A stretch of DNA of 28,370 nt from a virus. The position numbers were made by a program, and so were the translations under genes. The notes under the pieces were generated by a model that worked only from the letters and a program-made list of their open reading frames with translations, was not told where the DNA came from and did not search any database. Shown here piece after piece: positions 4,341 through 20,293 of this stretch. The stretch's first letter is position 1; every line of letters begins with the position of its first letter. The stretch spans positions 1 through 28,370 of IMG/VR virus record IMGVR_UViG_3300036401_000407, one strand, 5' to 3'.

Positions 4341-4352
4341 AGGAGAACGACA

Positions 4353-4685: not shown

Positions 4686-4709
4686 GGTCCACCCGAACCA
4701 CCATGCCGG

Positions 4710-4729: not shown

Positions 4730-4745
4730 ACCAGGAGAACAGGAA

Positions 4746-5096
4746 ATGCAGATCACTTACAGCTTTACCCCCTCCGAGGTGGCCACCATCCTCCACGGTT
4801 TGCGGTTGATCCAGGAACAGTGCGACGGGGCAGGGGATTGCACGGCCGGTATCTGTGAACACTTCCAAGATGACGAGGACCTGACCATCGCGGAAATCGA
4901 CGCCCTGTGCGAACGGATCAACCCGCGGGACGGGGACGCGCCCACCTGGAAGGAATGGCCCACCCCGGACCGGACAGCCATAGGCGACACCCCCACGTGT
5001 GAGGACTGCGGGGAGGCCTCCTGTATCTGCGAGGAACCCAACGAACGCACCCCGGACGATGAATTCAGCGGGGACCTGGACGGGGAAAAACTATGA
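4746..5096 (+). CDS. Acidic hypothetical protein with C-terminal Cys cluster
   Basis: This 116-residue protein starts at ATG after AGGAGAACAGGAA. The N-terminal part (ITYSFTPSEVATILHGLRLIQEQCDGAGDC) is probably helical. The rest is strongly acidic, and a CEDCGEASCIC cluster near residue 85-95 could bind a metal. The overall charge is very negative, a property also found in DNA-mimic inhibitors, but that alone does not show function. Its stop overlaps the start of the next gene (ATGA at 5093), so the two are translationally coupled. Confidence 0.65.
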   Translation: MQITYSFTPSEVATILHGLRLIQEQCDGAGDCTAGICEHFQDDEDLTIAEIDALCERINPRDGDAPTWKEWPTPDRTAIGDTPTCEDCGEASCICEEPNERTPDDEFSGDLDGEKL

Positions 5097-5740
5097 CCGC
5101 CGAACCTATCCTTGTATCTTGCCCCGGGCCGCACACGGATACATACACGTGCGGCCATTCCTATTCCCTGGCACCTGGCCACCAGTCCCGTCACCTGGAC
5201 CAACCCTGCCCCCGGTGCGGTGGAGCCACGGCAATCGCCGAGGAAGCCCCCAACCCTGGAGACTTTAACACCGCCGCCGAACACTATCCACCCGCATCGG
5301 AACTCCTGGTGCGGGAGTTTGACCCTATCCCGGAATGGGTGGCCCGGGGTTTCCCAACCAAACCCGCCAAGCTGGAGGCAGCCATCGCCAGATACTTCCG
5401 GGACCGGGACCTGGATGCAGCCAGGTACGAAGAACTGCGGATCCGCGGGGCCGAGGCGCTGTCCCAATACGATCGCATGATGCAGGGGGACGACGGAGCC
5501 CTCCGCACGGCCTTATCCCTCAAGTTCAATCACATTAGTTACCAGATGATGCACCTCCAGTTCGCCCGGACCACCTGGCCCACCCTATACCAGTTCATCC
5601 AGGACAGCCCCGCGCCACCACCGCAACCCCCCGAGGCCGAGCCCGAAGAGGACCCGGAGGACTTTGGGTTGGCGACGGATCCGGGGGAGGTCCTCGAGGA
5701 CCTGGGGATTGCCGACGACAGCCAGCTTTCATTGTTCTAA
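5093..5740 (+). CDS. Zinc-ribbon-containing hypothetical protein
   Basis: This 215-residue protein starts at the ATG of an ATGA overlap with the gene before it. Residues about 10-45 hold a probable zinc ribbon: CPGPHTDTYTCGH, then QPCPRCGG. A helical middle follows (FDPIPEWVARGF and KLEAAIARYFRDRDLDAARYEELRIR), then a Pro/Glu/Asp-rich tail ending SQLSLF. The gene has no leader hairpin of its own because it is coupled to its neighbour. Function unknown. The terminal hydrophobic SLF after an acidic tail resembles short motifs that dock on clamp-type or SSB-binding partners, but that is only a resemblance. Confidence 0.65.
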   Translation: MTAEPILVSCPGPHTDTYTCGHSYSLAPGHQSRHLDQPCPRCGGATAIAEEAPNPGDFNTAAEHYPPASELLVREFDPIPEWVARGFPTKPAKLEAAIARYFRDRDLDAARYEELRIRGAEALSQYDRMMQGDDGALRTALSLKFNHISYQMMHLQFARTTWPTLYQFIQDSPAPPPQPPEAEPEEDPEDFGLATDPGEVLEDLGIADDSQLSLF

Positions 5741-5746
5741 ATCCGG

Positions 5747-5767
5747 CCACCGGCGGGGATCCGGTGG
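5747..5767 (+). promoter_or_regulatory. Leader hairpin 4 (upstream of 5780 gene)
   Basis: A 7-bp perfect stem CCACCGG/CCGGTGG with the loop CGGGGAT is followed by GAAAGGGAAGTG and the ATG at 5780. It belongs to the same set as hairpins 1-3 and 5. The region after the stem is nearly identical to that of hairpin 5. Confidence 0.8.
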
Positions 5768-5779
5768 GAAAGGGAAGTG

Positions 5780-6133
5780 ATGGACAGGGAACCAAAAGCA
5801 CCGCCGTTCCCACTTGGCACCCGGTTGCGGTACACCGGCACGTATCAATCCAACACCTACGACATTGACCCCATAACCAGGGCCCACCGGGAGGTGCCTT
5901 TGTGTGCCCCCGGTATGGTGGTGTTGATCGACAAGGTCCACGAAGGCCACCGGGGAACCCTGGTGCACCTGGTGGACCACGATGGCCCCTTGTACTACGA
6001 CGACGACCAGCCCATCCTGGACACCACTGTTGACGGGTGGAGCGTTTACCACGTCCAGGCCTGGCAAGGTGGGATCCAGCAGGGCCGGGTGATCGACCAC
6101 GAGAGCAAGCACGAATGGGAAGTGATCCAATGA
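5780..6133 (+). CDS. Hypothetical protein with SH3-like beta pattern
   Basis: This 117-residue protein starts at the ATG at 5780, because GAAAGGGAAGTG is correctly spaced for it; a GTG one codon earlier is also possible. FPLGTRLRYTGTY opens a run of beta strands with Gly/Asp turns (GMVVLIDKVHEGHRGTLVHL, YHVQAWQGGIQQGRVIDH), consistent with a small beta-barrel domain that describes its own strand as a sensor or binding module. No family is recognised. Its stop overlaps the next start (ATGA at 6130). Confidence 0.6.
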   Translation: MDREPKAPPFPLGTRLRYTGTYQSNTYDIDPITRAHREVPLCAPGMVVLIDKVHEGHRGTLVHLVDHDGPLYYDDDQPILDTTVDGWSVYHVQAWQGGIQQGRVIDHESKHEWEVIQ

Positions 6134-6300
6134 CCCCGGATCTGCGGGAGTTATTGAAGAACCCAACGCCGGTGAAGTGTGAAGGATGCGCGAAGGTAAG
6201 GCGGTGCCTGGAGGCCGGTCCAGGTCCAGCGAGTCCATGTGTGATTTTCGTCAAGGCGCCGGCGGATCCGGCGGGAAAGGGAAGTGATGAGCGCCTTTGA
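6130..6300 (+). CDS. Tiny Cys-rich protein overlapping both neighbours
   Basis: A 56-codon frame starts at the ATG of an ATGA overlap (MTPDLRELLKNPTPVKCEGC) and carries CEGCAKVRRC plus a later PC, a possible zinc knuckle. It ends inside the start of the following gene (6287-6300 overlap). Leader hairpin 5 and the next ribosome binding site therefore lie within its coding sequence, a dual use of the DNA. The coupled start and the Cys spacing argue that it is real, but it is short and unrecognised. Confidence 0.5.
   Translation: MTPDLRELLKNPTPVKCEGCAKVRRCLEAGPGPASPCVIFVKAPADPAGKGSDERL
6257..6273 (+). promoter_or_regulatory. Leader hairpin 5 (upstream of 6287 gene, inside 6130 gene)
   Basis: A 6-bp perfect stem CGCCGG/CCGGCG with the loop CGGAT is followed by GGAAAGGGAAGTG and the ATG at 6287. 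The hairpin is conserved although it lies inside another coding frame, which suggests it is selected for itself. Confidence 0.8.
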
Positions 6301-6517
6301 TCCGAAGGAACTAGACGCCAGGCTCCAGCAGTGCGCCGCCGAACTGCCCGCCGGGTATACCGTGACCATTCACGTCGAAGCCGGGGCCGGATGGGTGGAC
6401 CTTACCGGCCCGGACGGGGACCCTATCGACTACCCTTGCAATCACGAATATGGGTTGATAGAGGCCGTGACCGACGCGCTGGACTACGCGAAAGAAACCG
6501 CCGCTGGGAAGAGGTGA
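6287..6517 (+). CDS. Hypothetical protein in plus-strand cassette
   Basis: This 76-residue protein starts at the ATG at 6287 with GGAAAGGGAAGTG upstream. It reads as a beta-alpha protein: a helix (FDPKELDARLQQCAAELPAG), two strands with a turn (YTVTIHVEAGAGWVDLTGPDG) and a C-terminal helix (LIEAVTDALDYAKETAAG). No family is recognised. It overlaps the end of the tiny Cys-rich gene and is followed five bases later by the next start. Confidence 0.65.
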   Translation: MSAFDPKELDARLQQCAAELPAGYTVTIHVEAGAGWVDLTGPDGDPIDYPCNHEYGLIEAVTDALDYAKETAAGKR

Positions 6518-6522
6518 AGTGA

Positions 6523-6768
6523 ATGATAGGCCTCGTGATGTTCTCGCTGGCGGGTAAGGCCACACTAAAAGAGCTTGCCCAGCCTATGGATGATGAAGTT
6601 ATCCGGCCGGTGCATTGGCGGAACCCTATCGCCGACGATGACCCGCGGCCGGTCGCACATCTACTCCGGCCCGACTGGAGCGAGTACACCACCTTTGAAG
6701 AGCCCAGGCCGCCGGTGCCTAAGAAGCCCGAGCGCCTACGGGAAGTGTGGAGATTGAAGCAGTCCTAA
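6523..6768 (+). CDS. Hypothetical protein, last gene of the hairpin-leader cassette
   Basis: This 81-residue protein starts at an ATG after GAGGTGAAGTGA. The N-terminal MIGLVMFSLAGKATLKELAQ is mildly hydrophobic but too short for a sure signal or membrane anchor. The rest is Pro/Arg/Asp-rich and probably extended. It has no leader hairpin, is packed against the preceding gene, and is followed 14 bases later by a strong terminator, so it closes the operon. Confidence 0.55.
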   Translation: MIGLVMFSLAGKATLKELAQPMDDEVIRPVHWRNPIADDDPRPVAHLLRPDWSEYTTFEEPRPPVPKKPERLREVWRLKQS

Positions 6769-6782
6769 AAACGACCGATTAC

Positions 6783-6818
6783 GGGACCACCGGGGAACCA
6801 CCTGGTGGTCCCTTTTTT
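6783..6818 (+). terminator. Rho-independent terminator closing the plus-strand cassette
   Basis: A perfect 9-bp stem GGGACCACC/GGTGGTCCC (6783-6791 with 6804-6812) with a 12-base loop is followed by six Ts (6813-6818). It sits just after the last cassette gene and separates it from the recombinase. Confidence 0.92.
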
Positions 6819-6892
6819 GCGCGATGAAAGTGTCCCGAAACCTTGCCCGAAATCAAAGCACCAGAAACCCGCGCCGTGTTATCTTTTGGGCC

Positions 6893-7450
6893 ATGAGAAT
6901 CGGCTACGCAAGGGTGTCCACCATCGACCAGTCTTTGGACCTGCAACGGGACGCCCTGGACCGGGCCGGATGCGTCCAGGTGTACGAAGAGAACGGGTCC
7001 GGCAAGACCGCAGACCGCCCGCAGTTGTCCGCAGTGATGAAGGCGCTACGACCAGGGGACTGCCTGGTGGTGTGGCGGTTGGATCGCCTGGGCCGGAACC
7101 TTTCGGACCTGGTCACCCTGGTGGGGGAGATGGACCGCCGCGGGGTCAACTTCGAATCCATCACGGAGAACCTGGAAACTCACTCGGTCACCGGCAAATT
7201 GATATTCCACATTTTCGCCGCGCTGGCAGAGTTTGAACGGTCCTTGATCCGCGAACGGACCATGGCGGGGCTAAAGGCCGCACGAGCCCGCGGACGGATG
7301 GGTGGCCGCCCGGCCAAGCTGTCCCCGCGCCAGGTGGAGACACTTCGGGCGATGTTGGCCGCGGGAAAGGTGCCGGTCCTCGAGGTGGCCAGGGTGTTCG
7401 GGATTGGCAAGTCCACCCTGTATCGCCACATTGCGGAACCGGCCGCCTAG
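6893..7450 (+). CDS. Small serine recombinase (resolvase/invertase family)
   Basis: This 185-residue protein starts at the ATG at 6893 (MRIGYARVSTIDQSLDLQRD), which matches the normal start of this family; an upstream in-frame start at 6824 would add residues with no family match. The catalytic Ser is the S of YARVST, and the Arg cluster is RLDRLGRNLSDLV. The long E helix follows (FHIFAALAEFERSLIRERT), and the C-terminus is a helix-turn-helix (VLEVARVFGIGKSTLYRHI). The length is right for a resolvase or DNA invertase and too short for a large serine integrase. It could resolve plasmid dimers, which suits the nearby ParA, or invert a segment. The stop overlaps that of the convergent minus-strand gene at CTAG. 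Confidence 0.9.
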   Translation: MRIGYARVSTIDQSLDLQRDALDRAGCVQVYEENGSGKTADRPQLSAVMKALRPGDCLVVWRLDRLGRNLSDLVTLVGEMDRRGVNFESITENLETHSVTGKLIFHIFAALAEFERSLIRERTMAGLKAARARGRMGGRPAKLSPRQVETLRAMLAAGKVPVLEVARVFGIGKSTLYRHIAEPAA

Positions 7451-7668
7451 GGTTCGGAAGTGGTGGGATCCTGGGCCAGGATGTCGACCAGGTTGGCGCG
7501 GGCGGTGTCGGTGAGGGTGTTGGCCCCGTCCGTGAGAATCCCATTGACCGCCGAGGTCAACGCGCCAATCCAGGCCCCGGTCTTCTTGCAAACCATGTGG
7601 CCAGTTTGAACGCACCCATGAACCGGGCAAGTGCCATCCGTTTGAATCCGCATCCAGGACCCTCCCAT
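7447..7668 (-). CDS. Small hypothetical protein at the end of the structural operon
   Basis: The 73-residue frame starts at the ATG of a TAATG junction with the gene before it (MGGSWMRIQTDGTCPVHGCV). CPVHGC and a later MVCKK suggest a small metal-binding turn; the C-terminal half (GALTSAVNGILTDGANTLTDTARANLVDILAQD) is helical. An internal ATG five codons in is also possible. It is the last gene of the run and meets the recombinase tail to tail, with no terminator visible between them. Function unknown. Confidence 0.6.
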   Translation of the reverse strand: MGGSWMRIQTDGTCPVHGCVQTGHMVCKKTGAWIGALTSAVNGILTDGANTLTDTARANLVDILAQDPTTSEP

Positions 7669-7952
7669 TACACCAGGGTGACACTTTTCAGTGTGCCGCC
7701 GTCGTTATAGTACAGTTTCACGGATCCCCCGGCGGTGTCCTTCCAAACCTTTGACACCCCCGCGGGGATGTCTAGCACCGTGGGAAGCCCGCTCTTTTGG
7801 AGAGCGCCGACCATCGTTAGGCCACACGCCTCCGCTTGCGGAATCAGGGTTTGCGGGATGGTGTACACCCCATTGACCGGCTTATAGTCCACGCCGGAAA
7901 TGTGAACACAACCACCCGCGGGCCCGAGCATCGATTGCGTTGGAACTGCCAT
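7668..7952 (-). CDS. Hypothetical structural-region protein
   Basis: This 94-residue protein starts at ATG with a GGAGG six bases upstream. It is Gly/Thr/Val-rich with a beta pattern (YTIPQTLIPQAEACGLTMVG, SVKLYYNDGGTLKSVTLV). It lies directly after the tail fibre gene and is coupled by TAATG to the final small gene. Size, beta character and position suit a minor head or tail decoration protein, but no family is recognised. Confidence 0.65.
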   Translation of the reverse strand: MAVPTQSMLGPAGGCVHISGVDYKPVNGVYTIPQTLIPQAEACGLTMVGALQKSGLPTVLDIPAGVSKVWKDTAGGSVKLYYNDGGTLKSVTLV

Positions 7953-8003
7953 ATTGCCTCCTGTGCCTGTTGGGGGCTATTCGCCCGGCCCGTTTTCTAG
8001 TTT

Positions 8004-9215
8004 TTAGTGGACTATACAAACCTGGTCAGGGTCGCCTCCGGTGCGGTAGAAAGCACCCGCGGTGAGCCCGCCACCGATGGCCGCGGCGTTGTTGGCGTAG
8101 ATGGGTAACCCCACAACCTGGAGGGCTGAAGTCGGCGACGCTGTTCCGAATCCGACCTTGCCGGTATTGACAATTAAGCCAACTCCAGCGGGGCAAGGGT
8201 TCGTTCCGTAGTTGATCGCGAGGCCATTGGTGTTTAACTGCCCATAGGTAACGTTATTGATGCGCAGCCAAATGCTGGCGCCAGTAGGAGCGTTCAGGAC
8301 GGTTCCAAGTGAGTACAAAAAGCTGTAATTTGTGACGGACGGTGAGGCGGTATTGGCTCCAAACCAGATGCCGGGATAGCTAGCAACTTGTCCAAGTAGA
8401 GCGGACCCGGCGCCGCTTGCGTTACTAAAAACATTGCCGTTGACTTCGAGCGCCTGTCCTGGGGTGGCCGTCCCGATACCTACGTTCCCACCTGAGAATG
8501 AAGCTGCATAGTTGGCCGTCGCACCCGTAGGAGCGGCGACAATCAACCCGGTAGCCGCCGCGCCCGATGCGGGAAGCGCCGCTACAACCAACCCTTGAGA
8601 GGCCGTGGGTGCAGCGCCGACGCCGAGAGGGATATTGACCTGAGAGGGCAGACGAGCGGCCGCTAGAGTTCCCGAGGCTATGTCAGAGGCCGCTAATACA
8701 ACCGCGCCAACTCTGCCCGCGACACTCAGGACAGCCTCGTAGTTGTCGACCTTATCCCACGTCACTCCGTCAAAGATGGCCCAATCGCCCGCGTGCCAGG
8801 AGGTATTTCCATCGATCACCGTGTTCCCGGCAGTACCCACCTTATAGAACTGCCCAAGGAATCCGTGACCGTTGGTGATGGTAGGCGAGTTGAGCGACGC
8901 ATCCCAGACGCCGGCGAAGTAAAGGGCGCCCGGACCGGGCTCACCCTGGATGCCTTGAGGCCCGTCCGGTCCGGTGGATCCGATGGCACCAGTGAGGCCG
9001 ATTTGCCCGCGAGGCCCGGTCTGTCCCGCCGGTCCCTGCTGGCCGGGTTGCGCCAAGAGTCCCCAACTTGCCGGATCCGATGGGGGCAGTACGCCGGTAG
9101 TGATCGCCAGGGCCACATAAGAGCATCCCAGGTACGTGCAAACGTCGCCGGGTTGATACGTGTTCGTCAGGCGGTAGGCGTCCCGCCAGGTGAATACAAA
9201 CCATGTTGCGTTCAT
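8004..9215 (-). CDS. Tail fibre protein with collagen-like repeats and CBM-like N-terminus
   Basis: This 403-residue protein starts at an ATG overlapping the portal-MuF stop (ATGA) with GGAGGATGAGGG upstream. Residues about 5-50 resemble a carbohydrate-binding module of the chitin-binding 5/12 type (WRDAYRLTNTYQPGDVCTYLG, later PPSDPASWGLLA). A run of Gly-X-Y triplets follows (PGQQGPAGQTGPRGQIGLTG onward, about 52-90). Then comes a long beta-rich region with repeated GNVGIGTATPGQALEVNG and KVGFGTASPTSALQV phrases typical of trimeric fibres and of chaperone-type tail spikes. It should mediate adsorption. The middle is locally lower in GC than the flanking genes, consistent with exchange of receptor-binding domains. 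The C-terminus lacks a visible intramolecular chaperone. Confidence 0.82.
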   Translation of the reverse strand: MNATWFVFTWRDAYRLTNTYQPGDVCTYLGCSYVALAITTGVLPPSDPASWGLLAQPGQQGPAGQTGPRGQIGLTGAIGSTGPDGPQGIQGEPGPGALYFAGVWDASLNSPTITNGHGFLGQFYKVGTAGNTVIDGNTSWHAGDWAIFDGVTWDKVDNYEAVLSVAGRVGAVVLAASDIASGTLAAARLPSQVNIPLGVGAAPTASQGLVVAALPASGAAATGLIVAAPTGATANYAASFSGGNVGIGTATPGQALEVNGNVFSNASGAGSALLGQVASYPGIWFGANTASPSVTNYSFLYSLGTVLNAPTGASIWLRINNVTYGQLNTNGLAINYGTNPCPAGVGLIVNTGKVGFGTASPTSALQVVGLPIYANNAAAIGGGLTAGAFYRTGGDPDQVCIVH

Positions 9216-11440
9216 CCCTCATCCTCCGCCCGAGCGTCTATGTCTGCTTGGCTCATCACCTCGGGAATGACGTCGCACCGACAGCGGGGATGACCGGGAG
9301 GCCCGTCCACCTCGTCGCCGTCAAAATCGAAGGACCCATCCAGCTCCACCACTGTGCCGTCCAACTCCGCGCATATATCGCAGTAGTCGTCCTGGGCCAG
9401 GATCCAGCGCTTTCCCTCCACCACATCGGAGGCCCGCCACCCGGCCAGGTTGCCCTGGACATCGGCGAAGGCGGTTTCGGTTGTGGCTATCAGGTCACAG
9501 CGCGCATCATCGAACCCGGCGAACTCCGCGATTTCCGCGGATAGCTTGTCGTTGCTCCACCCTTCCTCTTCCGCGGTGGCCACCAGGTCCGCCAGGCCCT
9601 CCCTGGTGGTTTCGTCAATCTGCGTCACCAGGTCCGCGGCGTGGTCATCTGCCCACTTGATCGCCTCTTCGTTGGCCTGGTCCAGCATCTTGCCAAGTTC
9701 TTCGTCATCCGCGCTTATCAGGTGGGCCACCTGGTGGAAGCCAGCCGCCGCTCCATCGGCTGCCATTTCCCTAATGCTCTTGTTTAACTTTTTGGTGGTC
9801 TTGTCGCTGGTGGTGATCGAATCGAACGGACCGGACGCGGCCTTGTGGAGGGATCCGGCCAGCTTGAGGGCCGCGGTCTTCTGGCGAGTGAATTCCGCGG
9901 CCATCGTCGCATGTATACCGGCTGTCGCCTTCGTAACAGCCGGCCGAGCTCTATCTATGGGTTGTAATGTAGGCGAAGGCTTTTTTTTTTGAACCCCGGA
10001 GGCCGGGGGTTTGGCTTTACCTGGGGGCGGCGCGGAGGCCGACTCTGACGCCGCTCCAGGCTTTCCACCTGGCGGGTTGCCAGGGGGAACTATTGGGGTG
10101 GGTGGCGCCATCTCTTGTTTTTGCTCGTCGGAGAATGGGTCCATCCCGTAGCCCTGTTGTCTCACTTCGTCCGGGGTCATCCAGGGTTTCCCGGTGCCGG
10201 TCCCCCCTCCCAGGGCAATCTGGAACATCTGGGCTTTCACCAGGGGGTCCGTTATCTCTTCGTCCCGCCAGGCGAACTCGAGATCCGGCGCGCCGTAGCA
10301 TCTCCGGATCACGCCGTCCATAAGGTTTTTGAACCACAGTTTCCGGGGCTCCACCCCTTCCTCCTGGGCGGTCTGCTTGGCGGTCTGCGCGGTGGCCCGG
10401 TTCTGTTCCTTGACCAACGCCTGGGGGGACAGGGAGAAGCACCAGCAAATGATGCGGGCCAGCCACTCATCCACCGCGCCGGTGAGGTCCGGGGCTTTGG
10501 TGCCGACGTAGGTGGTGCCGGACGGTGCCCAGATCCCATGCCGCCGCATCCCGGTTTGGCCGGTCAACACCACGTCCCAATAACTTTGAAAGTCCTTGAC
10601 CTGGTCCGGGGTCATCCCATCGGGCGCGATCAACAGCGCGTCCGGGATGGTGCCCTCCGTGTAGAACTCCGTTTGATGGAGCATCCGCCGCAAAGCCAGG
10701 TTGACGATGTTCACCACCTGTTCCACCGGACCCATGCCATAACTGCGATGGGGCCGCGGGTTGTAGGCGCGAATCATCATCTCGTCAAGGGTGTACTCCC
10801 AGGCAACCACGCCCTTGACCACCTCGGCGTACGCGGGAAGCGGGGGCAGGGGAGTGCGGCCATCCTGACCCACGTAGCGCTTAATCAGGGCCCCATCCAT
10901 CACCTCGGGCAGCTTGAACCCTTTGGTGGTGGGGCGCAGGTACAGGGTCGGCTGGTCCAGGACGTAGTGGTCCTCGAGGATCATTCGTTGCCAGGACAGG
11001 AAATCATTCACCCCATCGGGCTCGGCCAGCCTGTCCACGATGCGCTTGCCGCGGTCCCCGGCGTCCTTGTCGTCCTTGGACTTGATGTCCCACTTCTGGC
11101 CGCCTAACTTGTCCTTGCACGTTTCGATGGCCAGCCGCAACAGGTCCAGGCCGCCCAGGGCCGGATCCGCGATCCGCCGCAACATCGCAAAGTCAACGGC
11201 GTTCTCCCCCTGCTCTCCGCGGGGCCTGGTGCTGGTGTTGACGGCGAAGCCATAATCAAACGCTCGGCCCTTGTCCTGTTCCGGCGCCTGGGGTGGCATC
11301 GGTTCACCTGGTCCGAACCAGCCGCCCGAAAATGATTCCTTGCTTTGGCCGGTGGCCGCGGCCAGCATGTCTAGTTCGATCGGCAACAGCTTGGCCCCAC
11401 TGCTGCGGCCTACGAGGCTGAGGGGTGGTTTACTGGCCAT
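9212..11440 (-). CDS. Portal protein fused to MuF/SPP1 gp7-type head morphogenesis domain
   Basis: This is a 742-residue protein. Residues about 1-440 form the portal: an N-terminal arm, GLDLLRLAIETCKDKLGG, the wing/stem segments, and a conserved helix with SPQALVKEQNRATAQTAKQTA. A Pro/Ala/Gly-rich linker follows (about 440-500). The C-terminal part (about 515-742) is a MuF-like domain ending in a zinc-type cluster: WILAQDDYCDICAELDGTVV, then GPPGHPRCRCDVIPEV. Portals form the dodecameric packaging vertex, while MuF proteins are minor head proteins that are often encoded separately, so the fusion is notable. Inside the linker an A10 run (residues 484-487, Q-K-K-K) is preceded by a hairpin, so slippage could release a portal of about 495 residues without MuF. 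The start overlaps the stop of the 36-residue gene upstream. Confidence 0.88.
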   Translation of the reverse strand: MASKPPLSLVGRSSGAKLLPIELDMLAAATGQSKESFSGGWFGPGEPMPPQAPEQDKGRAFDYGFAVNTSTRPRGEQGENAVDFAMLRRIADPALGGLDLLRLAIETCKDKLGGQKWDIKSKDDKDAGDRGKRIVDRLAEPDGVNDFLSWQRMILEDHYVLDQPTLYLRPTTKGFKLPEVMDGALIKRYVGQDGRTPLPPLPAYAEVVKGVVAWEYTLDEMMIRAYNPRPHRSYGMGPVEQVVNIVNLALRRMLHQTEFYTEGTIPDALLIAPDGMTPDQVKDFQSYWDVVLTGQTGMRRHGIWAPSGTTYVGTKAPDLTGAVDEWLARIICWCFSLSPQALVKEQNRATAQTAKQTAQEEGVEPRKLWFKNLMDGVIRRCYGAPDLEFAWRDEEITDPLVKAQMFQIALGGGTGTGKPWMTPDEVRQQGYGMDPFSDEQKQEMAPPTPIVPPGNPPGGKPGAASESASAPPPGKAKPPASGVQKKKPSPTLQPIDRARPAVTKATAGIHATMAAEFTRQKTAALKLAGSLHKAASGPFDSITTSDKTTKKLNKSIREMAADGAAAGFHQVAHLISADDEELGKMLDQANEEAIKWADDHAADLVTQIDETTREGLADLVATAEEEGWSNDKLSAEIAEFAGFDDARCDLIATTETAFADVQGNLAGWRASDVVEGKRWILAQDDYCDICAELDGTVVELDGSFDFDGDEVDGPPGHPRCRCDVIPEVMSQADIDARAEDEG
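9981..10011 (-). other. A10 slippery run with upstream hairpin in the portal-MuF linker
   Basis: In mRNA sense, the hairpin (10011-9992: AACCCC-C-GG, loop CCT, CC-GGGGTT) is followed after one C by ten As (9990-9981). The zero frame reads through into MuF. Adding one A gives 12 new codons and a stop, and removing one A gives 8 new residues and a stop; both products are portal-only, about 494-496 residues. A homopolymer of this length is conspicuous in GC-rich DNA. Confidence 0.6.
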
Positions 11441-11744: not shown

Positions 11745-13301
11745 TTATGTGCCTACCTGTTCTGCCATTTGGCGGTAAAAATCCACTACGCCCTGGCCGG
11801 AGAATCCGTGATGGAGCCAGTTCATCCCCTGGGTGAAGGCGTCCACATCGTCGTCGTGGGCCATTTTAGGGAACCCGTACAGGTTCTCCAGGAAGTCCGC
11901 AACCCACGGCAGCGAGGGGTCCACGAACACGTTGCCAGCTTCCCAGGTGGGGACCACCGCATGGGCCCGGCTTACCTTGTCCCGGTCCACTGTGATCGCC
12001 ACCAGGGGGATGGCCGTCTCCAGGCGTAACTCCTGCAGCAGTGATTGACCGGATGCCTTGTCCTCCACCAGGAAGGCCTGGGGCCTCCACTTGGCGTTCA
12101 TCGCCTTCACCTGTAGCTTGAGCTCGGGATACCCGGCTTTGTCCTTCCAGCGGTCCAGCAGGTCCCAACCCTCGGCGCGCTCTCCGATGGCCAGCACCAC
12201 ACTGTTGTCGTTCTCTTCCTTCTCTTTGAAGGCGGTATCCGCGGTGAGAATGATGCGCTTGTAAACCTTGAACCGTTGGTGAGTGGCCGGGTCAACCTCT
12301 CCCATCCGTTTGAGGACCGCGGCACAATCGAACGTCCGCACGAAACCATGCTTGAAAATCTGGCCCTCGGCGGGGACCGGCCTTTGCTGGTGCTGCCCGG
12401 CGAATCCCGCGGATCCCAGGCGCTTCCGTTCCGCGGCCACCACATCGGCGGGGAAGCGGGCGGGGAAGAACAGTTCTTTCTCCACCTGGCGGGGATCCGT
12501 CCACCCCAGGCACGTGGGCCGGAAGTCGGGATCCGTTGGCTTCGGGAACTCGTATTCCTCCCGGATAATCAGGACTTCCCAATTTTCCGGTTCCGTCGCG
12601 AGTATGTGGCCGGTCAAGTCCTCTTCGTGCAGCCGCTGCTGGATGATGCAACGAACACCCGTCGACAGGTTGGCCAGCCGGTTGGCCGCCGCACTATCCC
12701 ACCAGGAAATGATGGTGTCCCTGGCCGTCTTGCTGTAGGCCTCCGCGGCGTCGTTGGGGTCATCCACCAGGATCGCGTGGGCCCGGGATCCGGTGATGCG
12801 GGAACCCGCGGACATCGCCCGCCGAAACCCTGTCTTGCTGTTTTTGTAGTGGCCTTTGGCGTTTTGGGCCTTGTCGAAAGCCCAGGACGGAGCGAACACG
12901 CGGCGATACCAGGCAGAGTCCAGGATGTCCCGGCATTTCATCGAGTCGCGGATTGCCACTTCGCCGTTACCTGAGGCGAACAGACCGCGCCACCCTGGTC
13001 CCAGGTCGTTGTCCTCACCTGGTGGTTGAATCCAGATCCAGGCCGGAACGCACACGGACAGGATGGTGGACTTCATACTGCCGGGCGGAACGTTGATTAT
13101 CAGGTTGCGGAGGATCCGGCCGTCCCGGACCAGGCGGCCCTGGACGAGGGCCTGGACGTGGTCGCAAATAACATCCAGGTGCCAGTTCCACACCAGCGGG
13201 GTGGATGGCTCGATGATGGGCCAGGCTTGCTTTACGAACTCGGCGAGGGACCGGCGGGCCCGTTCCGCTTTTACCTGTTCGTATGAGACAAGCTCACCCA
13301 C
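11745..13301 (-). CDS. terL: Terminase large subunit (ATPase/nuclease)
   Basis: This 518-residue motor protein threads DNA into the prohead and cuts it. With the GTG at 13301, which overlaps the preceding stop by eight bases, the Walker A-like box NVPPGSMKST is near residues 70-79, Walker B with adjacent acid ILVDDPND is near 177-184, and the coupling motif region IIQQRLHEEDLTGH follows. The RNase H-like nuclease has its first Asp in ILTADTAFKEKEEN (about 355), a second acid in FLVEDKASGQSL and the terminal acids in KMAHDDDVDAF (about 480-488). An upstream in-frame ATG at 13376 would add 25 residues that lie in the coding region of the neighbouring gene and look unlike terminase, so the coupled GTG is preferred. 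TerS is four genes upstream. Confidence 0.93.
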   Translation of the reverse strand: MGELVSYEQVKAERARRSLAEFVKQAWPIIEPSTPLVWNWHLDVICDHVQALVQGRLVRDGRILRNLIINVPPGSMKSTILSVCVPAWIWIQPPGEDNDLGPGWRGLFASGNGEVAIRDSMKCRDILDSAWYRRVFAPSWAFDKAQNAKGHYKNSKTGFRRAMSAGSRITGSRAHAILVDDPNDAAEAYSKTARDTIISWWDSAAANRLANLSTGVRCIIQQRLHEEDLTGHILATEPENWEVLIIREEYEFPKPTDPDFRPTCLGWTDPRQVEKELFFPARFPADVVAAERKRLGSAGFAGQHQQRPVPAEGQIFKHGFVRTFDCAAVLKRMGEVDPATHQRFKVYKRIILTADTAFKEKEENDNSVVLAIGERAEGWDLLDRWKDKAGYPELKLQVKAMNAKWRPQAFLVEDKASGQSLLQELRLETAIPLVAITVDRDKVSRAHAVVPTWEAGNVFVDPSLPWVADFLENLYGFPKMAHDDDVDAFTQGMNWLHHGFSGQGVVDFYRQMAEQVGT

Positions 13302-13539
13302 GGCAAGCCCGACGCAGCACCCTGGCCCTGGCCATCCGTTCCCGCATATCGGCGCGGCGTTGCCAGTAGCGGTCATCGAACGACTCGCGGCACCGTTCCC
13401 CGCAGATTCGTTTCATCACCTGGCCACCGCGGACTGACTCGAGGGCGATGGTGCCCTCCTGGATCCGGCCGCCACACTCGGAGCAGTGCACCGTCTTTTC
13501 CTGGTAGACCTGGACGAAATCGGATCCAATCAGCGCCAT
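13294..13539 (-). CDS. Small zinc-ribbon protein next to terminase
   Basis: This 81-residue protein starts at the ATG at 13539, chosen for its TAGGAG site. It has CSECGGRIQEGTIAL, then RICGERCRESFDD, a four-Cys ribbon arrangement, and a very basic C-terminal helix (WQRRADMRERMARARVLRRACR). Basic zinc-ribbon proteins of this size are common near phage packaging genes and may bind nucleic acid. It overlaps both the gene before it and TerL. Confidence 0.6.
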   Translation of the reverse strand: MALIGSDFVQVYQEKTVHCSECGGRIQEGTIALESVRGGQVMKRICGERCRESFDDRYWQRRADMRERMARARVLRRACRG

Positions 13540-13999: not shown

Positions 14000-14224
14000 C
14001 TACAGGTAGAGAGAGTGGCGGGGTGACGTGTCGCCAGCCGCCCGGAACGCCGCATCCTGCCAAGCCTCCGGTTCCGTGCGAAACACTTCACTAATGGCGG
14101 CGTCGGCGGCGTAGATAGCCCAAAGGCCGCCAGTTTCTACCGCATGAGCCAGGGGCACTTTTGCTATCGTCGCGCCCTTGTAGAGCAAGCCCCAACTTTC
14201 AAACATGCGCTGTCGATCGTTCAT
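14000..14224 (-). CDS. Hypothetical protein downstream of TerS
   Basis: This 74-residue protein starts at the ATG at 14224 inside the TerS stop (TGATG), with GGAGG just upstream. It is Ala-rich and probably helical (MNDRQRMFESWGLLYKGATI, then an Ala-rich helix with AIYAADAAISEVF). No family or motif is recognised. It is one of four small genes between TerS and TerL. Confidence 0.6.
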   Translation of the reverse strand: MNDRQRMFESWGLLYKGATIAKVPLAHAVETGGLWAIYAADAAISEVFRTEPEAWQDAAFRAAGDTSPRHSLYL

Positions 14225-14718
14225 CACGCCTCCGCGGGCAGCAGGGTGGCGCCGGCCGCCTCATACAGGGCTTCCATCTGCGCCAGTTGGTCGTCCGTCA
14301 GCTTGGACAGGTCGACGGTTGGGGTTAGTGGTTTGCCGTCCGGGGTGGTGGGGGCCAGCTTCGTCGGGGCGTCCAGGCCCAACAGCTTGCACCGGCGTTC
14401 CGAAGCCCGCAACAGGATGTCCGCGCTCTTGGCGGCTGCCCTGTTCGGCCAGTGAGCCATCACGATGCCGTCAATGCGGGAAATCTCCAGGGCCCGGACA
14501 TTGTCGGCCGTTTCCGCGGTCAGTTTAGCCTGGCCGCTCATCCCCTGCTTGATAAGCTGGCAAACCCGCGGGGCCCGGACCTTCATAACCCGGCCGATTT
14601 CGTTGTAGGTGCAACCGGCCCGCCGCAGATCTAGGGCTTGCTGGACCCGTTGGGCGTGAGTGATGCGGACCGGCGAGGTTGGGTGGTTGGGGTGGACTGG
14701 CATAACTTTAGCCTCCAT
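14224..14718 (-). CDS. Probable terminase small subunit (DNA-binding)
   Basis: This 164-residue protein starts at ATG after AAAGGTAAACGCC. Residues about 20-60 are a helix-turn-helix: RVQQALDLRRAGCTYNEIGR, then VMKVRAPRVCQLIKQGM, the wording typical of small terminase N-termini. The middle helices (about 65-115) would oligomerise and the acidic tail (LSKLTDDQLAQMEALYEAAG) would contact TerL. It lies six bases after folE, so packaging and DNA modification genes share an mRNA. Assignment rests on fold type, size and position; a general HTH regulator is the alternative. Confidence 0.7.
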   Translation of the reverse strand: MEAKVMPVHPNHPTSPVRITHAQRVQQALDLRRAGCTYNEIGRVMKVRAPRVCQLIKQGMSGQAKLTAETADNVRALEISRIDGIVMAHWPNRAAAKSADILLRASERRCKLLGLDAPTKLAPTTPDGKPLTPTVDLSKLTDDQLAQMEALYEAAGATLLPAEA

Positions 14719-14724: not shown

Positions 14725-15330
14725 TTACCTTTTGGCGATTCCCAGGAACTCGGCGCGGGTCATCGGATCCGTCCGAAACTTCCCGGTGACAACGGTTGAC
14801 GTCATAAGCGCGGGCGTACGAATCCCCCGCATGGTCATGCACAGGTGTTCGCCCTGGGCTAGCACTGCCACGTCCTCCGAACGGGTGTAATCCTTCACAC
14901 TCTGGGCAATCTCCTGCACCAGGCGTTCCTGGATTTGCAACCGGGAGGCGCAGTGGTGGGCAATCCGGCCGAACTTGGACAGCCCGAGGACCTGGCCGCG
15001 GGGAATGTAGCCAATCGAGACACCACACCAGAACGGCAGCAAGTGGTGTTCGCATAGGCTCCAAACCTTCATGCCGGACACCACCACCATCTGGTCCGTT
15101 TGATCCGAGGCGAAGACGGTTTCCACCTTGCCGGGGTCATGCTCGATGAATTCCCGCCACCATTTGGCGAACCGCAGGGGGGTGTCCTTGATCCTGGGTT
15201 CGTCCGGATCCTCGCCGATGGCCAACAGCAGGTCCCGGCCTATCTCCTGGAGCCTGGCGAAGTCCACCCGGCCCTTGTGGAGCGACGGGGGTGGGGGCGG
15301 CCAGGTCAATCCATGCTCTGCAGCCTTCAC
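14725..15330 (-). CDS. folE: GTP cyclohydrolase I (7-deazaguanine pathway)
   Basis: This 201-residue enzyme is normally made from GTP cyclohydrolase I scaffolds and converts GTP to 7,8-dihydroneopterin triphosphate, the first step of preQ0 synthesis. The zinc ligands are seen in SLCEHHLLPF (Cys and His, about 91-100) and in the EHLCMTMRG segment. The GLSKFGRIAHHCASRLQIQE and MTSTVVTGKF stretches are also diagnostic. The start is the GTG at 15330, in a GTGA overlap with the queE stop; an upstream frame start would lie within queE. The length is close to the usual 180-220 residues. It is the last biosynthetic gene of the dpd set and is followed by terS. Confidence 0.93.
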   Translation of the reverse strand: MKAAEHGLTWPPPPPSLHKGRVDFARLQEIGRDLLLAIGEDPDEPRIKDTPLRFAKWWREFIEHDPGKVETVFASDQTDQMVVVSGMKVWSLCEHHLLPFWCGVSIGYIPRGQVLGLSKFGRIAHHCASRLQIQERLVQEIAQSVKDYTRSEDVAVLAQGEHLCMTMRGIRTPALMTSTVVTGKFRTDPMTRAEFLGIAKR

Positions 15331-15983
15331 CGGATCCCCCCGAAAGCCACTTTGTGGTGTTGCACGGTCAACCGCCAGGCCGGATTCGCACGCACCAGGG
15401 CCATGCACCAGGCCAGTGTGGTCGGGTCCAGTTGGTCGGCTTCGAACATCGGGGACACCAGGTAGTGGTCCGCCTGGATCCGCGGGTGCGGGATCCCCTG
15501 GCCGGTTGCCCGGACATACTTCAGTTCATTGGCCCGTTCCAACTTGATCGCGTGTTCCGCCACCTTCGGGGAACAGGTGATCCAGTCCAGGCCCGCCGGC
15601 GCCTTGTGGGTGCCGTTGGTTTCAACGCAGAGGAACCAGTCCGCGGCCTTGAAGGCGTCCACCAGCTCCGCATCCAGTTGCAACAGGGGTTCGCCACCAC
15701 AGAACAGCACATTGCGGCACGGACCGGCCACCAGGGGGTGAGTCTTGTGGGTTTGGCCTTCCACCTCGTCGGCGGGGATGGGTGCATGGTTAGCCGCGGC
15801 GATGCCGGTGGCCAGGGCGACGAGCTCCGCGGCCGTGGTCTTGGTGTACGATTCGAACTCCGTATCACAGAACCCACAAGCCAGGTTGCATTTCGACAGG
15901 CGGATGAACACGTGAGGGATTCCATAGCGGGTGCCCTCACCTTGGACGGCGTAATAAACCTCGTTAACCAGGTATTCGCGCAA
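15327..15983 (-). CDS. queE: 7-carboxy-7-deazaguanine synthase (radical SAM)
   Basis: This 218-residue radical SAM enzyme turns 6-carboxytetrahydropterin into 7-carboxy-7-deazaguanine. The cluster motif is CNLACGFCD (CX3CX2C, Cys at about 32, 36, 39), preceded by the family signature YAVQGEGTRYG and followed by FCGGEPLLQ and FLCVETNGTH. The start is taken as a TTG at 15983, because AAAGGA is spaced seven bases before it and it gives the usual N-terminus (REYLVNEVYYAVQGEG). An ATG at 16049 lies deep inside queC and gives unrelated residues. It overlaps the queC end by 20 bases. Confidence 0.93.
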   Translation of the reverse strand: MREYLVNEVYYAVQGEGTRYGIPHVFIRLSKCNLACGFCDTEFESYTKTTAAELVALATGIAAANHAPIPADEVEGQTHKTHPLVAGPCRNVLFCGGEPLLQLDAELVDAFKAADWFLCVETNGTHKAPAGLDWITCSPKVAEHAIKLERANELKYVRATGQGIPHPRIQADHYLVSPMFEADQLDPTTLAWCMALVRANPAWRLTVQHHKVAFGGIR

Positions 15984-16656
15984 GGGGTTGTCCTTTCGGG
16001 TTGAGTCCGTTGGCAGCAAAGGCATCCAGACGCTGGATGCAGGAGTCACAGGTGTTGCAGGGTTCGGTGTCGGGCATATAGCAGGACCAGGTCAACCCGT
16101 AGTCCACGCCGAGGTCTAAACCCCACCCCACGATTTCCGCCTTTGTGAAGTTGGCGAAGGGGAACAGGATCCGGGGAAGGTAATCGGGGCTCGTCCCCAT
16201 CCTGGCCGCATGGGTGAAGGCCGTCGCGAACTCGGCGGTGTCGTCCCAATAATTGCCAGAGTCCAGGCCATTGGATCCCAGGTAGATGCGCTCGAGGCCC
16301 CTGGCTTCCCCGAAGGCCACGGCCCAGGCCAGGAATATCCCGTTGCGGAATGGAACATAGGTGGGAGGGGTGCCGGCTGCCGCGATTGTTTCGCGGTCCC
16401 GGCCCTGGGGAATGTGGGTGGGATCCTCCTGGAGCAGCGCACACCCTGGGGCCACCTTGCGGAGGTCCAGGTGGACCACCTCCGATGAACACCCGAACCT
16501 GGTGGCGTTGTCGATCGCAACCTTGATTTCCGCCTGGAGGGTTTGGCCGTAATCGAACACCAGGCACACCGGGTGCTTATCCTGGTGGACCAGGTCCGCA
16601 AGAACGGTGGTGGAGTCGATCCCGCCGGACAGCAGGAGGATGCAATCGGCCTTCAT
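15964..16656 (-). CDS. queC: 7-cyano-7-deazaguanine (preQ0) synthase
   Basis: This 230-residue enzyme converts 7-carboxy-7-deazaguanine to preQ0 with ATP and ammonia. It has the PP-loop LLLSGGIDSTT (about 7-17), a VFDYGQ segment, and the C-terminal zinc site CYMPDTEPCNTCDSC. The start is the ATG of an ATGA overlap with queD; the longer frame to 16680 is unsupported. With FolE, QueD and QueE it completes synthesis of preQ0 from GTP inside one operon. Confidence 0.95.
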   Translation of the reverse strand: MKADCILLLSGGIDSTTVLADLVHQDKHPVCLVFDYGQTLQAEIKVAIDNATRFGCSSEVVHLDLRKVAPGCALLQEDPTHIPQGRDRETIAAAGTPPTYVPFRNGIFLAWAVAFGEARGLERIYLGSNGLDSGNYWDDTAEFATAFTHAARMGTSPDYLPRILFPFANFTKAEIVGWGLDLGVDYGLTWSCYMPDTEPCNTCDSCIQRLDAFAANGLNPKGQPLARIPG

Positions 16657-17069
16657 TCCGCCTCCCAGGTCACGAAACACTTGCCGGTTTCACCCACCCG
16701 GACCCGGACCAGGCGGACCCCATCGGACAGCATGGCCGGGCCCACTATCTTGCCCAGGTATTCGGCCATGTTCTCCGCGGTGGGATTGAAGGCAACCACC
16801 TGGGGACGGAGGCCCAGGGTGGTGATGGCTGCCGCGGCCGGGTCATCGCACCACAGCAGCAGCTTGTGGTCCCAATGGTCCTCGAGCCACTGGCACAGCT
16901 TGTCTTTAATCACCCCGAAGTCCACCACCCGGCCCAGGGGGTCCAGCTTGAACGCGGCACAGGTGAACTCCACCGTGTAGTTGTGGCCGTGAAGGTTGCG
17001 GCATTTGCCCTCATGGCCAAACACTCGATGGCCACAGCAGATTTCATGGGTGCGGGTTGCGGTAATCAT
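16653..17069 (-). CDS. queD: 6-carboxy-5,6,7,8-tetrahydropterin synthase
   Basis: This 138-residue member of the PTPS/QueD family acts on dihydroneopterin triphosphate. It carries the zinc histidines of GHRVFGHEGKCRNLHGHNY (H14, H27, H29) with the catalytic Cys (C23 in the GKCRNLHGH context), and the late DHKLLLWCDD and PTAENMAEYL segments. The start is the ATG of an ATGA overlap with dpdA (17069), giving a standard length. It is the second gene after the transglycosylase. Confidence 0.94.
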   Translation of the reverse strand: MITATRTHEICCGHRVFGHEGKCRNLHGHNYTVEFTCAAFKLDPLGRVVDFGVIKDKLCQWLEDHWDHKLLLWCDDPAAAAITTLGLRPQVVAFNPTAENMAEYLGKIVGPAMLSDGVRLVRVRVGETGKCFVTWEAE

Positions 17070-17926
17070 GGGCGCTCCGGGATGGTGATGTCGCCGTGGA
17101 CCTGGCACAAGTAGGTTTTGCTGGAGGCGTAGGCGACGGCGTTGAATCCGCAGATCAGCCGGCGGGCGTCCTTTCCGCGGATGTCGTGACAAAAGGGCTC
17201 GGGGTCAAAGCCCAGGGCCCGGACCAGGCGGGCGTTCTTCTGCCAGTTCACCCGGTCCCGAAGAGAGAGAGAGATAAACTTCGCGGTCCTGGGGTCGAAC
17301 ACCTTACACTCCCCGAACCGCACACCGGCGGACCAGGACGAGGAATCCACCGAATACCAGGGGACCGTCTTGGCGATTTCCCAATTTGTGGCGCCGAAAC
17401 CGTGGAACACCGTGGGGCCGCCGCGGGCAATCTGGAAGATTTTGGCCAGCCAGGGCAACAGTTTCTTGTGGCATTTCAGCCAGGGAACCATCTTGCCAAC
17501 GGCCACATACGGGTATCGATCGACATACCTTTCCAGGTGGCGGAAGTCCTCGCCGGTGTGGAAGGCGGGCAGCGGGTGGAGCCCGGCGTCCTCCATCTCC
17601 ATCTGATTGCGCCAGGTGCGTTCCGGGGCTTGCATGTCGTCCAGGTTGGAATAGACATCGAAGTGGTGGCCGAAGCGCTTAATGAAGGCGATATATTCCG
17701 CCATCTTTATCGGGCTTCCCAGGGTGAAAGCGGACCAGGCGCCGGAGTCCAGGAAGAACCGCGGGGACCCGCCCTTGAAATACTTGGCCACCAGCGCGTC
17801 GATGTCTTTCTTGCCGAAATAGTGGTAGGAGAGCAGGTAGCGGGTTTCGATTCCGCGCTCTACCAGGGCATCGTGGCCGGACTGGAAGTTGTCCACGTTG
17901 GTTTCAGCCAGGTAGATCCGGGTCAC
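17066..17926 (-). CDS. dpdA: DpdA-like DNA guanine transglycosylase (7-deazaguanine insertion into DNA)
   Basis: This 286-residue protein resembles the tRNA-guanine transglycosylase-like DpdA proteins of phages. DpdA exchanges guanine in DNA for a 7-deazaguanine base, here predicted as preQ0. Expected features are visible: FFLDSGAWSAF with the likely general Asp at about residue 60, a NLDDMQAPERTW segment, a GGPTVFHGFGATN segment around 169-181, and YSVDSSSWSAG with the candidate nucleophile Asp at about 194. The start is GTG at 17926, in a GTGA overlap with the ParB-fold gene. Position directly ahead of queD-queC-queE-folE makes DNA modification far likelier than a tRNA role, since no tRNA-specific C-terminal zinc domain is seen. 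Assignment is from motifs and context, not a search. Confidence 0.88.
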   Translation of the reverse strand: MTRIYLAETNVDNFQSGHDALVERGIETRYLLSYHYFGKKDIDALVAKYFKGGSPRFFLDSGAWSAFTLGSPIKMAEYIAFIKRFGHHFDVYSNLDDMQAPERTWRNQMEMEDAGLHPLPAFHTGEDFRHLERYVDRYPYVAVGKMVPWLKCHKKLLPWLAKIFQIARGGPTVFHGFGATNWEIAKTVPWYSVDSSSWSAGVRFGECKVFDPRTAKFISLSLRDRVNWQKNARLVRALGFDPEPFCHDIRGKDARRLICGFNAVAYASSKTYLCQVHGDITIPERP

Positions 17927-18555
17927 AGGCTCACCCGTTCCAGCAGCGCGGCGAACTTCTCCGGTTCGGATGGGCCCACCATCGACGCCATGAGGGAGGT
18001 GAACCGTTCGTGCGTTTCCGGTTCCACCTTTAGCTTGATTTCCGGCCAGAACATGGTCAGGTCCGGCGCGCCGTTGGATTGCGCCAGCTCGTCGGCGGAA
18101 GGCGGAACCACCGGGGACACGGACCCGTTCAGCAACAGGTCATCCAGCAGCAGCTTTAGGGGGCCGTCTTCCAACTGGATGTCCGCCACCAGGTCCCGCA
18201 GGATCCCGGCGTCCGTCACGGCCAGGCTGGAGATGGGGTCCAGGGTGGCAAGGATTAGTGCCTCTTCCTCTTCGTCTAGGTCCACATAGGTCACCGGCAA
18301 GGTGGGTTCGTTGTTCTTCATCGCCAGCATTACGCGGAGGTGCCCGTCGACCATGTGGCCGGTCCGCTGATTGACTAGGACCTGCTGGACCCACCCCACC
18401 CTGTCCAGGACCGCCTGGAGGTTGTCCTGTTGAAACTGCGGGTGCACGCGCCAGTTCTGGGGGTTGGCTAACAGTTGGTCCGGGGCTTCCATGCCGTGCC
18501 CGCAGATCCGATTACGCCAGTGACCCGGCGCGGGGGCTTTTTGTTTTTTGGCCAT
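17923..18555 (-). CDS. ParB/Srx-fold protein, possible partner of DpdA
   Basis: This 210-residue protein has an N-terminal ParB-like domain: LLANPQNWRVHPQFQQDNLQ, GWVQQVLVNQRTGHMVDGHL (the GHMVDGHLR box at about 86-94), then LDEEEEALILATLDPISSLA. The acidic C-terminus is less conserved. In phages this domain is usually found fused or next to DNA methylases. Here its place is taken by a DpdA transglycosylase, with which it overlaps (GTGA). The bacterial dpd system uses a ParB-related DpdB for insertion, so an equivalent role is a reasonable inference. The start at 18555 follows no clear Shine-Dalgarno site. Lys-rich N-terminus MAKKQKAPAPG. Confidence 0.8.
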   Translation of the reverse strand: MAKKQKAPAPGHWRNRICGHGMEAPDQLLANPQNWRVHPQFQQDNLQAVLDRVGWVQQVLVNQRTGHMVDGHLRVMLAMKNNEPTLPVTYVDLDEEEEALILATLDPISSLAVTDAGILRDLVADIQLEDGPLKLLLDDLLLNGSVSPVVPPSADELAQSNGAPDLTMFWPEIKLKVEPETHERFTSLMASMVGPSEPEKFAALLERVSL

Positions 18556-19321: not shown

Positions 19322-19554
19322 GGGGTGTCGTAGTCCTCCGGGGGCACGGTGAACAGTTCCCCCTGGGCCATCGGAAGCCCGGCACCGGCAGCCACCAGGT
19401 CGGCGATGGCTGCCCGGATGTGTTCCCGGATGTATTCCACGTCCGGGTGTTCGGCGTACCAGGGATCCGTGCGGACGGCACCGGGCCGGTTCATTTCGAA
19501 CATGGCCCGGTTGACCTCCACCTGGGCGTTGACTAGGCTTTGCTCCCAACTCAT
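19318..19554 (-). CDS. Hypothetical protein
   Basis: This 78-residue protein starts at the ATG of an ATGA overlap with the DUF1643 gene (MSWEQSLVNAQVEVNRAMFE). It looks helical (VEYIREHIRAAIADLVAAGA) and ends in a short acidic tail (FTVPPEDYDTP). Not recognised. It couples DUF1643 to HNH. Confidence 0.6.
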   Translation of the reverse strand: MSWEQSLVNAQVEVNRAMFEMNRPGAVRTDPWYAEHPDVEYIREHIRAAIADLVAAGAGLPMAQGELFTVPPEDYDTP

Positions 19555-20030
19555 TCGGCCTCCCCGCGGAGGGCTTCCGGCTGTAAATCTGCCTTTAGGT
19601 AGAGGGGGTGCTTAGGTGATCCGTCCCCGTTCCGCCCTAGACACTTCAGGCCCGGCCACTTGCTGGCCACCGCATCCCCGCGCCCTTTGCCGTGGTTGCC
19701 CCAGGCTGCAATGACCAGGTCGCACCCATGTTCCGCGGCGTATCTAAGCAGGGCCTCGGTCCAGTTCGATCGACCCCCGATGATGTCCACGGCCCGCTTC
19801 TCAGCCTTCCACATATCGGCGGGCTTGGTGGCCCGGAAGGCATACAGGTTCAACATCAAAAGCCCACCCTTGCCCCAGGTCTTGGCGAAGCCGATACACC
19901 GGCGGATGGTGGGGTCATCCTGGGTTTCGTCCGCGGTGGATGGGTTGAGCCCGATGAACGCCACCTTTGGAAGCGTGGCGTCCCATTCGCGGACTAACGT
20001 GTACCGGAAGCGGCGACAAGGTGAAAACAT
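19551..20030 (-). CDS. DUF1643 family protein
   Basis: This 159-residue protein carries the family hallmarks FRYTLVREWD, AFIGLNPSTADETQDDPTIR, then CIGFAKTWGKGGLLMLNLYA and VIAAWGNHGKG. It is a widespread family of unknown function found in phages and mobile elements, with an alpha/beta fold reminiscent of DNA glycosylases. The start is taken as the ATG at 20030; a GTG four codons earlier, overlapping the upstream stop, is equally possible. The long frame to 20171 is unsupported. Confidence 0.82.
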   Translation of the reverse strand: MFSPCRRFRYTLVREWDATLPKVAFIGLNPSTADETQDDPTIRRCIGFAKTWGKGGLLMLNLYAFRATKPADMWKAEKRAVDIIGGRSNWTEALLRYAAEHGCDLVIAAWGNHGKGRGDAVASKWPGLKCLGRNGDGSPKHPLYLKADLQPEALRGEAE

Positions 20031-20038
20031 GGCTCCAC

Positions 20039-20293
20039 TCACGCGGCCTCCCCGAATGTGAAAGTCTCCTGGCCTTCCAGCTCCAGGATGGTTTGCTCCG
20101 CGGATCCGCTCCGCTTGCGGGCGCCATACCGTTGCCGCCGGATTTCGTCCAGCCAAACCTTGTACGGCCACATCCGCCGTTCGCCGAACGGATAGGCCTC
20201 TTTCAGGGCTTTACGGATAACAGGTTCCGGCTGGCCTTTGGTGTCGGCCAGGACCTTGGCGATGATGGGGGTGGACGTTGTGCGCCAACTCAT
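20039..20293 (-). CDS. Small basic hypothetical protein
   Basis: This 84-residue protein starts at the ATG of an ATGA overlap (MSWRTTSTPIIAKVLADTKG). A helix-rich phrase PVIRKALKEAYPFGERRMWP and YKVWLDEIRRQRYGARKR is typical of a conserved phage protein of about this size with a WPYKVWLxE signature, whose role is not established. It ends shortly before the DUF1643 gene. Confidence 0.65.
   Translation of the reverse strand: MSWRTTSTPIIAKVLADTKGQPEPVIRKALKEAYPFGERRMWPYKVWLDEIRRQRYGARKRSGSAEQTILELEGQETFTFGEAA

Follow-up and report, generated by a model that had tools for sequence, protein, structure and literature searches.

The stretch examined here, called the window, comprises the 28,370 bases (positions 1 to 28,370) of IMG/VR record IMGVR_UViG_3300036401_000407, from an uncultured phage. 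On its minus strand, running from 18555 to 14725, lies a six-gene cassette that is very probably a 7-deazaguanine DNA-modification cassette of the type found in phage Rosebush, in which a ParB-like protein most likely serves as an accessory to the transglycosylase DpdA. In reading order, the genes are:

17923 to 18555, minus strand: ParB/sulfiredoxin-fold protein, 210 residues; core at about 10 to 127 with a DGHLR motif, C-terminal tail at about 150 to 208
17066 to 17926, minus strand: DpdA, DNA 7-deazaguanine transglycosylase, 286 residues; GTG start overlapping the ParB stop
16653 to 17069, minus strand: QueD, 6-carboxytetrahydropterin synthase, 138 residues
15964 to 16656, minus strand: QueC, 7-cyano-7-deazaguanine synthase, 230 residues, with no amidotransferase domain
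15327 to 16049, minus strand: QueE, 7-carboxy-7-deazaguanine synthase, radical SAM; start at GTG 16049 or ATG 16025
14725 to 15330, minus strand: FolE, GTP cyclohydrolase I, 201 residues from a GTG overlapping the QueE stop

All six genes are open, and their catalytic motifs are present. The original prediction, made from the DNA letters alone, described stop-start junctions throughout the cassette. This holds at four of the five junctions, which are four-base overlaps in the DNA (GTGA at ParB/DpdA and QueE/FolE, ATGA at DpdA/QueD and QueD/QueC). It does not hold at QueC/QueE, where the overlap is longer, 62 or 86 nucleotides depending on the unsure QueE start.

The enzymes of 7-cyano-7-deazaguanine (preQ0) synthesis were identified with Pfam, PHROGs, and NCBIfam profiles. 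FolE matches PF01227 (4.6e-52) and has the motifs CEHH and HLC; QueD matches PTPS (1.5e-27) and a QueD-like PHROG (9.9e-45) and has CxxxHGH; QueC matches PF06508 (6.2e-46) and has SGGIDS and a four-Cys site. QueE matches a QueE-like PHROG (1.3e-26) and TIGR04508 (3.8e-37, under that family's curated cut-off) and has CxxxCxxC. These clear matches and intact motifs bear out the proposal of a full GTP to preQ0 set. The accompanying claim that the window holds no QueF-like, amidotransferase, or ArcS-like gene also stands: none was found among the window proteins scanned by profile, nor was a DpdC-like domain, in a record that is incomplete. The record ends near the prohead protease gene, and relatives in its lineage are about 40 kb long, so that a gene missing from the window may still be present in the phage.

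Several lines of evidence identify the 17066 to 17926 protein as DpdA, as had been proposed. It has no Pfam match, but it matches phrog_887, "queuine tRNA-ribosyltransferase," at 4.7e-46, and it is 39% identical to the DpdA of phage CAjan over about 200 residues (E 4e-37). Among the phage genomes searched, Mycobacterium phages Bipper and Nadezda encode the closest DpdAs, at about 40% identity. The motifs DSGAW (60 to 64) and SVDSSSW (192 to 198) are present, and all 56 sequences compared conserve D60, D194, and H175. A profile match to the solved bacterial DNA-guanine transglycosylase 7ui4 aligns both Asp motifs, and H175, within HGFG, aligns with a His of that enzyme in the same weak match. 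The predicted structure is an eight-stranded TIM-type barrel (predicted local distance difference test score 95), so that the model, with its barrel and two catalytic Asp, has the TGT/DpdA fold rather than falling outside it. Single-sequence DpdA or ParB queries found no match in viral contigs, and a phage-derived DpdA alignment used as query found 558 DpdA relatives there.

By sequence comparison, the layout of the cassette is closest to that of the Rosebush-type actinophages (mycobacteriophage subcluster B2), which share the series ParB-DpdA-QueC/QueD-QueE-FolE beside the terminase, the overlapping genes, the lack of an amidotransferase (in this phage, among the window proteins scanned), and the tail of the ParB. 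Hedgerow, classed as Rosebushvirus rosebush, was used to represent Rosebush; its order, ParB-DpdA-QueC-QueD-QueE-FolE-terminase, is that of the window with two genes swapped. CRB2, Finch, Sour, Sonali, and Quesadilla, like Hedgerow, differ in order only at QueC/QueD. The Rosebush-type DpdA is only about 30% identical, and by terminase and portal the window phage falls in a different lineage. Bipper and Nadezda have ParB, DpdA, QueD, QueE, FolE, an RNaseE-like protein (phrog_645 type), and terminase in the same order as the window, but lack the QueC that the window has (for Bipper, PMC6884629). The cassette of CAjan and other Queuovirinae encodes the same five enzyme families, but its order is QueE-QueC-QueD-FolE-DpdA, it adjoins a processivity factor and polymerase, and no ParB partner is annotated or was found in such loci. 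The bacterial Dpd system (DpdA, ParB-like DpdB, DpdC) likewise joins a transglycosylase to a ParB-superfamily partner, but the window ParB has no DpdB family match and no DpdC-like domain was found in the window.

Measured phages provide the precedent for the predicted base. The "group 2" phages of Hutinet 2019 have FolE-QueD-QueE-QueC-DpdA and no amidotransferase; in measured members, the deoxynucleoside of preQ0 (dPreQ0) replaces about 28% of G in Rosebush and about 32% in CAjan (PMC6884629). CAjan without dpdA has no dPreQ0, and the enzymes tried on its DNA digest it completely (PMC6884629), in line with the earlier statement that such bases block restriction in related phages. The gene set of the window is that of this group, with complete FolE, QueD, QueE, and QueC and with a DpdA (or DpdA2); H175 of the window protein is a candidate for the conserved His, position 196 in the published numbering, that DpdA2 lacks. 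Given the dPreQ0 measured in Rosebush and CAjan, dPreQ0 is the best and simplest prediction for this phage as well, as first proposed. Both product and protection are taken from the literature on such phages, and the making and insertion of preQ0 by the cassette is well supported by that precedent.

In the proposed pathway, FolE, QueD, QueE, and QueC would convert GTP to preQ0, and DpdA would put it in place of guanines in the phage DNA, probably at only some of the G positions (about a third in measured relatives), so that the DNA would contain dPreQ0. The modified virion DNA would thereby be protected against host restriction enzymes. As a DpdA accessory, the ParB-like protein would have a core that binds nucleotide and/or DNA and a tail that contacts DpdA and sets its loading or sequence choice.

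Some observations weigh against this account. The profile match between the window DpdA and 7ui4 is weak (E 0.17), and Foldseek with the DpdA model returned generic TIM barrels only, with no TGT in the top 50. The cassette is known here from sequence. Rosebush, with its matching gene set, also contains traces of dADG (0.003% of G; PMC6884629), and in phage MED16 DpdA accompanies trace modification with no noticeable restriction effect (PMC8306585). Finally, about 12 kb of the genome is missing, and a later tailoring enzyme is possible because the record is incomplete.

This last point also lends some weight to an alternative that is on balance unlikely, namely that the final base is not preQ0 but ADG, preQ1, or G+, derived from it by an enzyme encoded outside the 28.4-kb contig or arising from promiscuous DpdA use of pathway intermediates. 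Both dADG and dG+ are known from DpdA phages elsewhere, nt-1 and MED16 among them (PMC8306585, PMC6884629). In phage 9g, however, the tailoring domain is fused to QueC, whereas the window QueC, at 230 residues, has no added domain. Moreover, when 15 records holding related cassettes were searched for QueF, nothing exceeded the cut-off, and one of the three weak matches lies inside FolE.

FolE is common to folate synthesis, and QueD, QueE, and QueC also serve tRNA queuosine, which is the ground for a second and highly improbable alternative: that the genes supply the host with queuosine or folate, DpdA acts on tRNA, and DNA is not modified. Against it, the transglycosylase falls in the phage DpdA group, and sister phages hold other DNA-modification enzymes at the same place. 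In addition, 9g DpdA failed to complement tgt (PMC6884629).

The partner gene at the head of the cassette had been described as encoding a ParB-fold protein, and three kinds of evidence agree: PHROG matches, profile matches to solved Spo0J/Noc/ParB structures (1e-11), and Foldseek matches to ParB structures. Its sequence has the N-terminal fold of the ParB/Srx superfamily; nucleotide binding or hydrolysis is only putative, the DGHLR motif being present. The ParB alignment is too divergent for scanning contigs. Pairing with DpdA was surveyed in 91 loci with this DpdA kind, drawn from the window, named phages, and IMG/VR contigs. Six are cut by contig edges; in 65 of the 85 that can be evaluated, a ParB-like gene directly adjoins DpdA, mostly overlapping it, a proportion that describes this DpdA branch rather than all DpdAs because the loci were gathered by DpdA similarity to the window. 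Loci lacking a ParB neighbor are mostly Queuovirinae-like, with another gene order and, where annotated, a sliding clamp after DpdA. No ParB-DpdA fusion open reading frame (ORF) occurs in the 91 loci.

On this sequence evidence, the pairing is not accidental. ParB-like genes are common in phages, and the window encodes a ParA-like ATPase (3064 to 3726), as might be expected if the ParB-like protein were an ordinary partition or transcription protein that neighbors DpdA by chance. This is rather improbable: the ParA-like gene lies about 14 kb from the ParB-like gene, the pairing recurs with usually overlapping genes, a C-terminal tail is found only with DpdA (see below), and homologues in sister phages adjoin other DNA-modifying enzymes. 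Identity of the partner with bacterial DpdB (NF041060) was considered and rejected, as there is no family profile match and a profile comparison gives 17% probability. In the literature on the role of a ParB beside phage DpdA, only a suggestion by the CRB2 authors that ORF1 is a dpdB homologue was found (PMC6392294), and for the ParBc domain in the setting of CmoX, a 2025 study describes the precise function as unknown (PMC12783734).

Two further arrangements were seen among related loci (designated here by L numbers, L127 to L148 being terminase relatives of the window). Streptomyces-type cassettes have an extra ParB farther upstream, with no DpdA-type tail and a different conserved C-terminal domain:

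L038, 776 to 1630: extra upstream ParB
L047, 4264 to 5127: extra upstream ParB
L048, 4507 to 5352: extra upstream ParB
L097, 2568 to 3401: extra upstream ParB

Many related cassettes have two tandem DpdA ORFs, and some also two ParBs, possibly forming heterodimers or dividing substrates or sites; tandem DpdA loci are L021, L026, L042, L047, L060, L061, L065, L067, L068, L072, L076, and L079.

The tail of the ParB-like protein is linked to DpdA, and core and tail differ in their relatives. Over shuffles, comparison with ParBs of the phage's own lineage gives z 47 to 67 for the window core and z about 1 for the tail. Compared with DpdA-linked ParBs of unrelated phages, the tail scores z 14 to 21, while the core can be at chance (z below 1 in L048, L065, L067, and L070). 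An ORF census used tail and core profiles from which the window and L013 had been left out. It found the tail in 88 ORFs, each of them no more than 1.2 kb from a DpdA; among 121 core-bearing ORFs, 101 are near a DpdA (86 with the tail) and 20 are away from one (none with the tail). The 15 tail-less cores near DpdA stand mostly with more distant DpdAs, so the tail accompanies one DpdA branch. Because most census loci had been chosen by DpdA, an independent check was made with the consensus tail against 50,697 phage records. It found 55 records, all actinophages, and dpdA is immediately downstream or one small ORF away in all eight neighborhoods read (Hedgerow, Sour, Sonali, Quesadilla, CRB2, Bipper, Nadezda, and Finch). 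The same search of plasmids found none.

On the core tree, 10 changes of tail state are counted, at least 7 of them on well-supported branches. The L013 core, which comes with both tail and DpdA, has as its sister the tail-less L142 core fused to a methyltransferase (support 98/83). Sequence comparison thus gives core and tail different histories, and we infer that the ParB may be an adaptor whose tail docks its modifying enzyme. The main rival to an adaptor, with an appreciable though less than even chance, is co-inheritance of the whole ParB-DpdA cassette with no docking. Resemblance between L013 and the window in ParB (57%), DpdA (52%), QueD (60%), and FolE (71%) fits co-inheritance, and a phylogenetically independent association test, with 3 to 4 informative pairs one way and 0 the other, is underpowered (p about 0.25). 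The discordance of core and tail, the grouping of the L013 core with that of L142, and the sharing of a tail by unrelated cores argue against co-inheritance alone.

The phage's own lineage was traced from the terminase, and a second gene borders the modification slot:

14224 to 14718, minus strand: phrog_645 DNA-binding protein, in the position of the small terminase gene (terS), bordering the modification slot
11745 to 13376, minus strand: terminase large subunit, used for finding the lineage

The relatives L127 to L148 have terminases 61 to 79% identical to that of the window and share its portal and protease, the longer ones also several upstream genes, but no Que or DpdA gene is seen in any of them. 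Their genes upstream of terS are different. L127 and L128 have a ParB core and a TET-associated glycosyltransferase (PF20691, 1.7e-44 in L128; L128:1777 to 3319). In L131, L132, and L148, the ParB core is joined by another ParB, this one fused to a methyltransferase, and by a protein of 153 to 155 residues. In L142 the ParB core and an N6/N4 DNA methyltransferase form a single fusion (6568 to 7851), and L146 has ParB alone. Others have no ParB: L138 has a C5-cytosine methyltransferase (7324 to 8965), as by sequence do L139 and L141; L140 has a PAPS-reductase-like protein (1512 to 2282); and L129 and L135 have proteins of unknown kind. The ParB and ParB-methyltransferase slots lie at:

L131, 6408 to 8888: ParB and ParB-methyltransferase slot
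L148, 6444 to 8936: ParB and ParB-methyltransferase slot

The position upstream of terS looks like a slot for DNA-modification genes. A fuller proposal, which we hold tentatively and at a shade under even probability, is that the slot is exchangeable: the ParB adaptor would often be kept while the enzyme is replaced (7-deazaguanine, glycosylation, or methylation) and the tail exchanged to fit, the tail here being a DpdA-specific docking module. The small protein after the ParB-methyltransferase (L131:8421 to 8888; L148:8475 to 8936), with no Pfam match in L131 and no PHROG match in L131 or L148, is a candidate for a further base-tailoring step.

No close relative of the phage has a named host; the best terminase matches are in Roseobacter and Paracoccus phages (38 to 39%) and the best portal matches in Brevundimonas phages (35 to 38%), a hint of an Alphaproteobacteria host that is not enough to assign one. 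Elsewhere in the window, a DUF1643 protein of unknown function lies upstream of the cassette (19551 to 20171; PF07799, 2.5e-36) and has no match in the terminase relatives. A serine resolvase (6824 to 7450, plus strand; PF00239, 2.3e-45) is encoded within a block of plus-strand ORFs (about 4000 to 7450) that lies between minus-strand structural genes; AT skew is reversed in this block, which is possibly an inserted segment. The ParA/MinD-like ATPase (CbiA, 1.1e-8) may have a partition function of its own, and a single 742-residue protein (9212 to 11440) combines portal-like and Mu gpF-like domains.

With this cassette, a further lineage of uncultured phage joins those predicted to conceal their DNA with 7-deazaguanine. 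The preQ0-DpdA cluster itself is of an already known type; more unusual are the partner-specific tail and the apparent swap slot. The tail, of about 60 residues, offers a small, concrete target for addressing what ParB-like proteins do beside phage DNA-modification enzymes.

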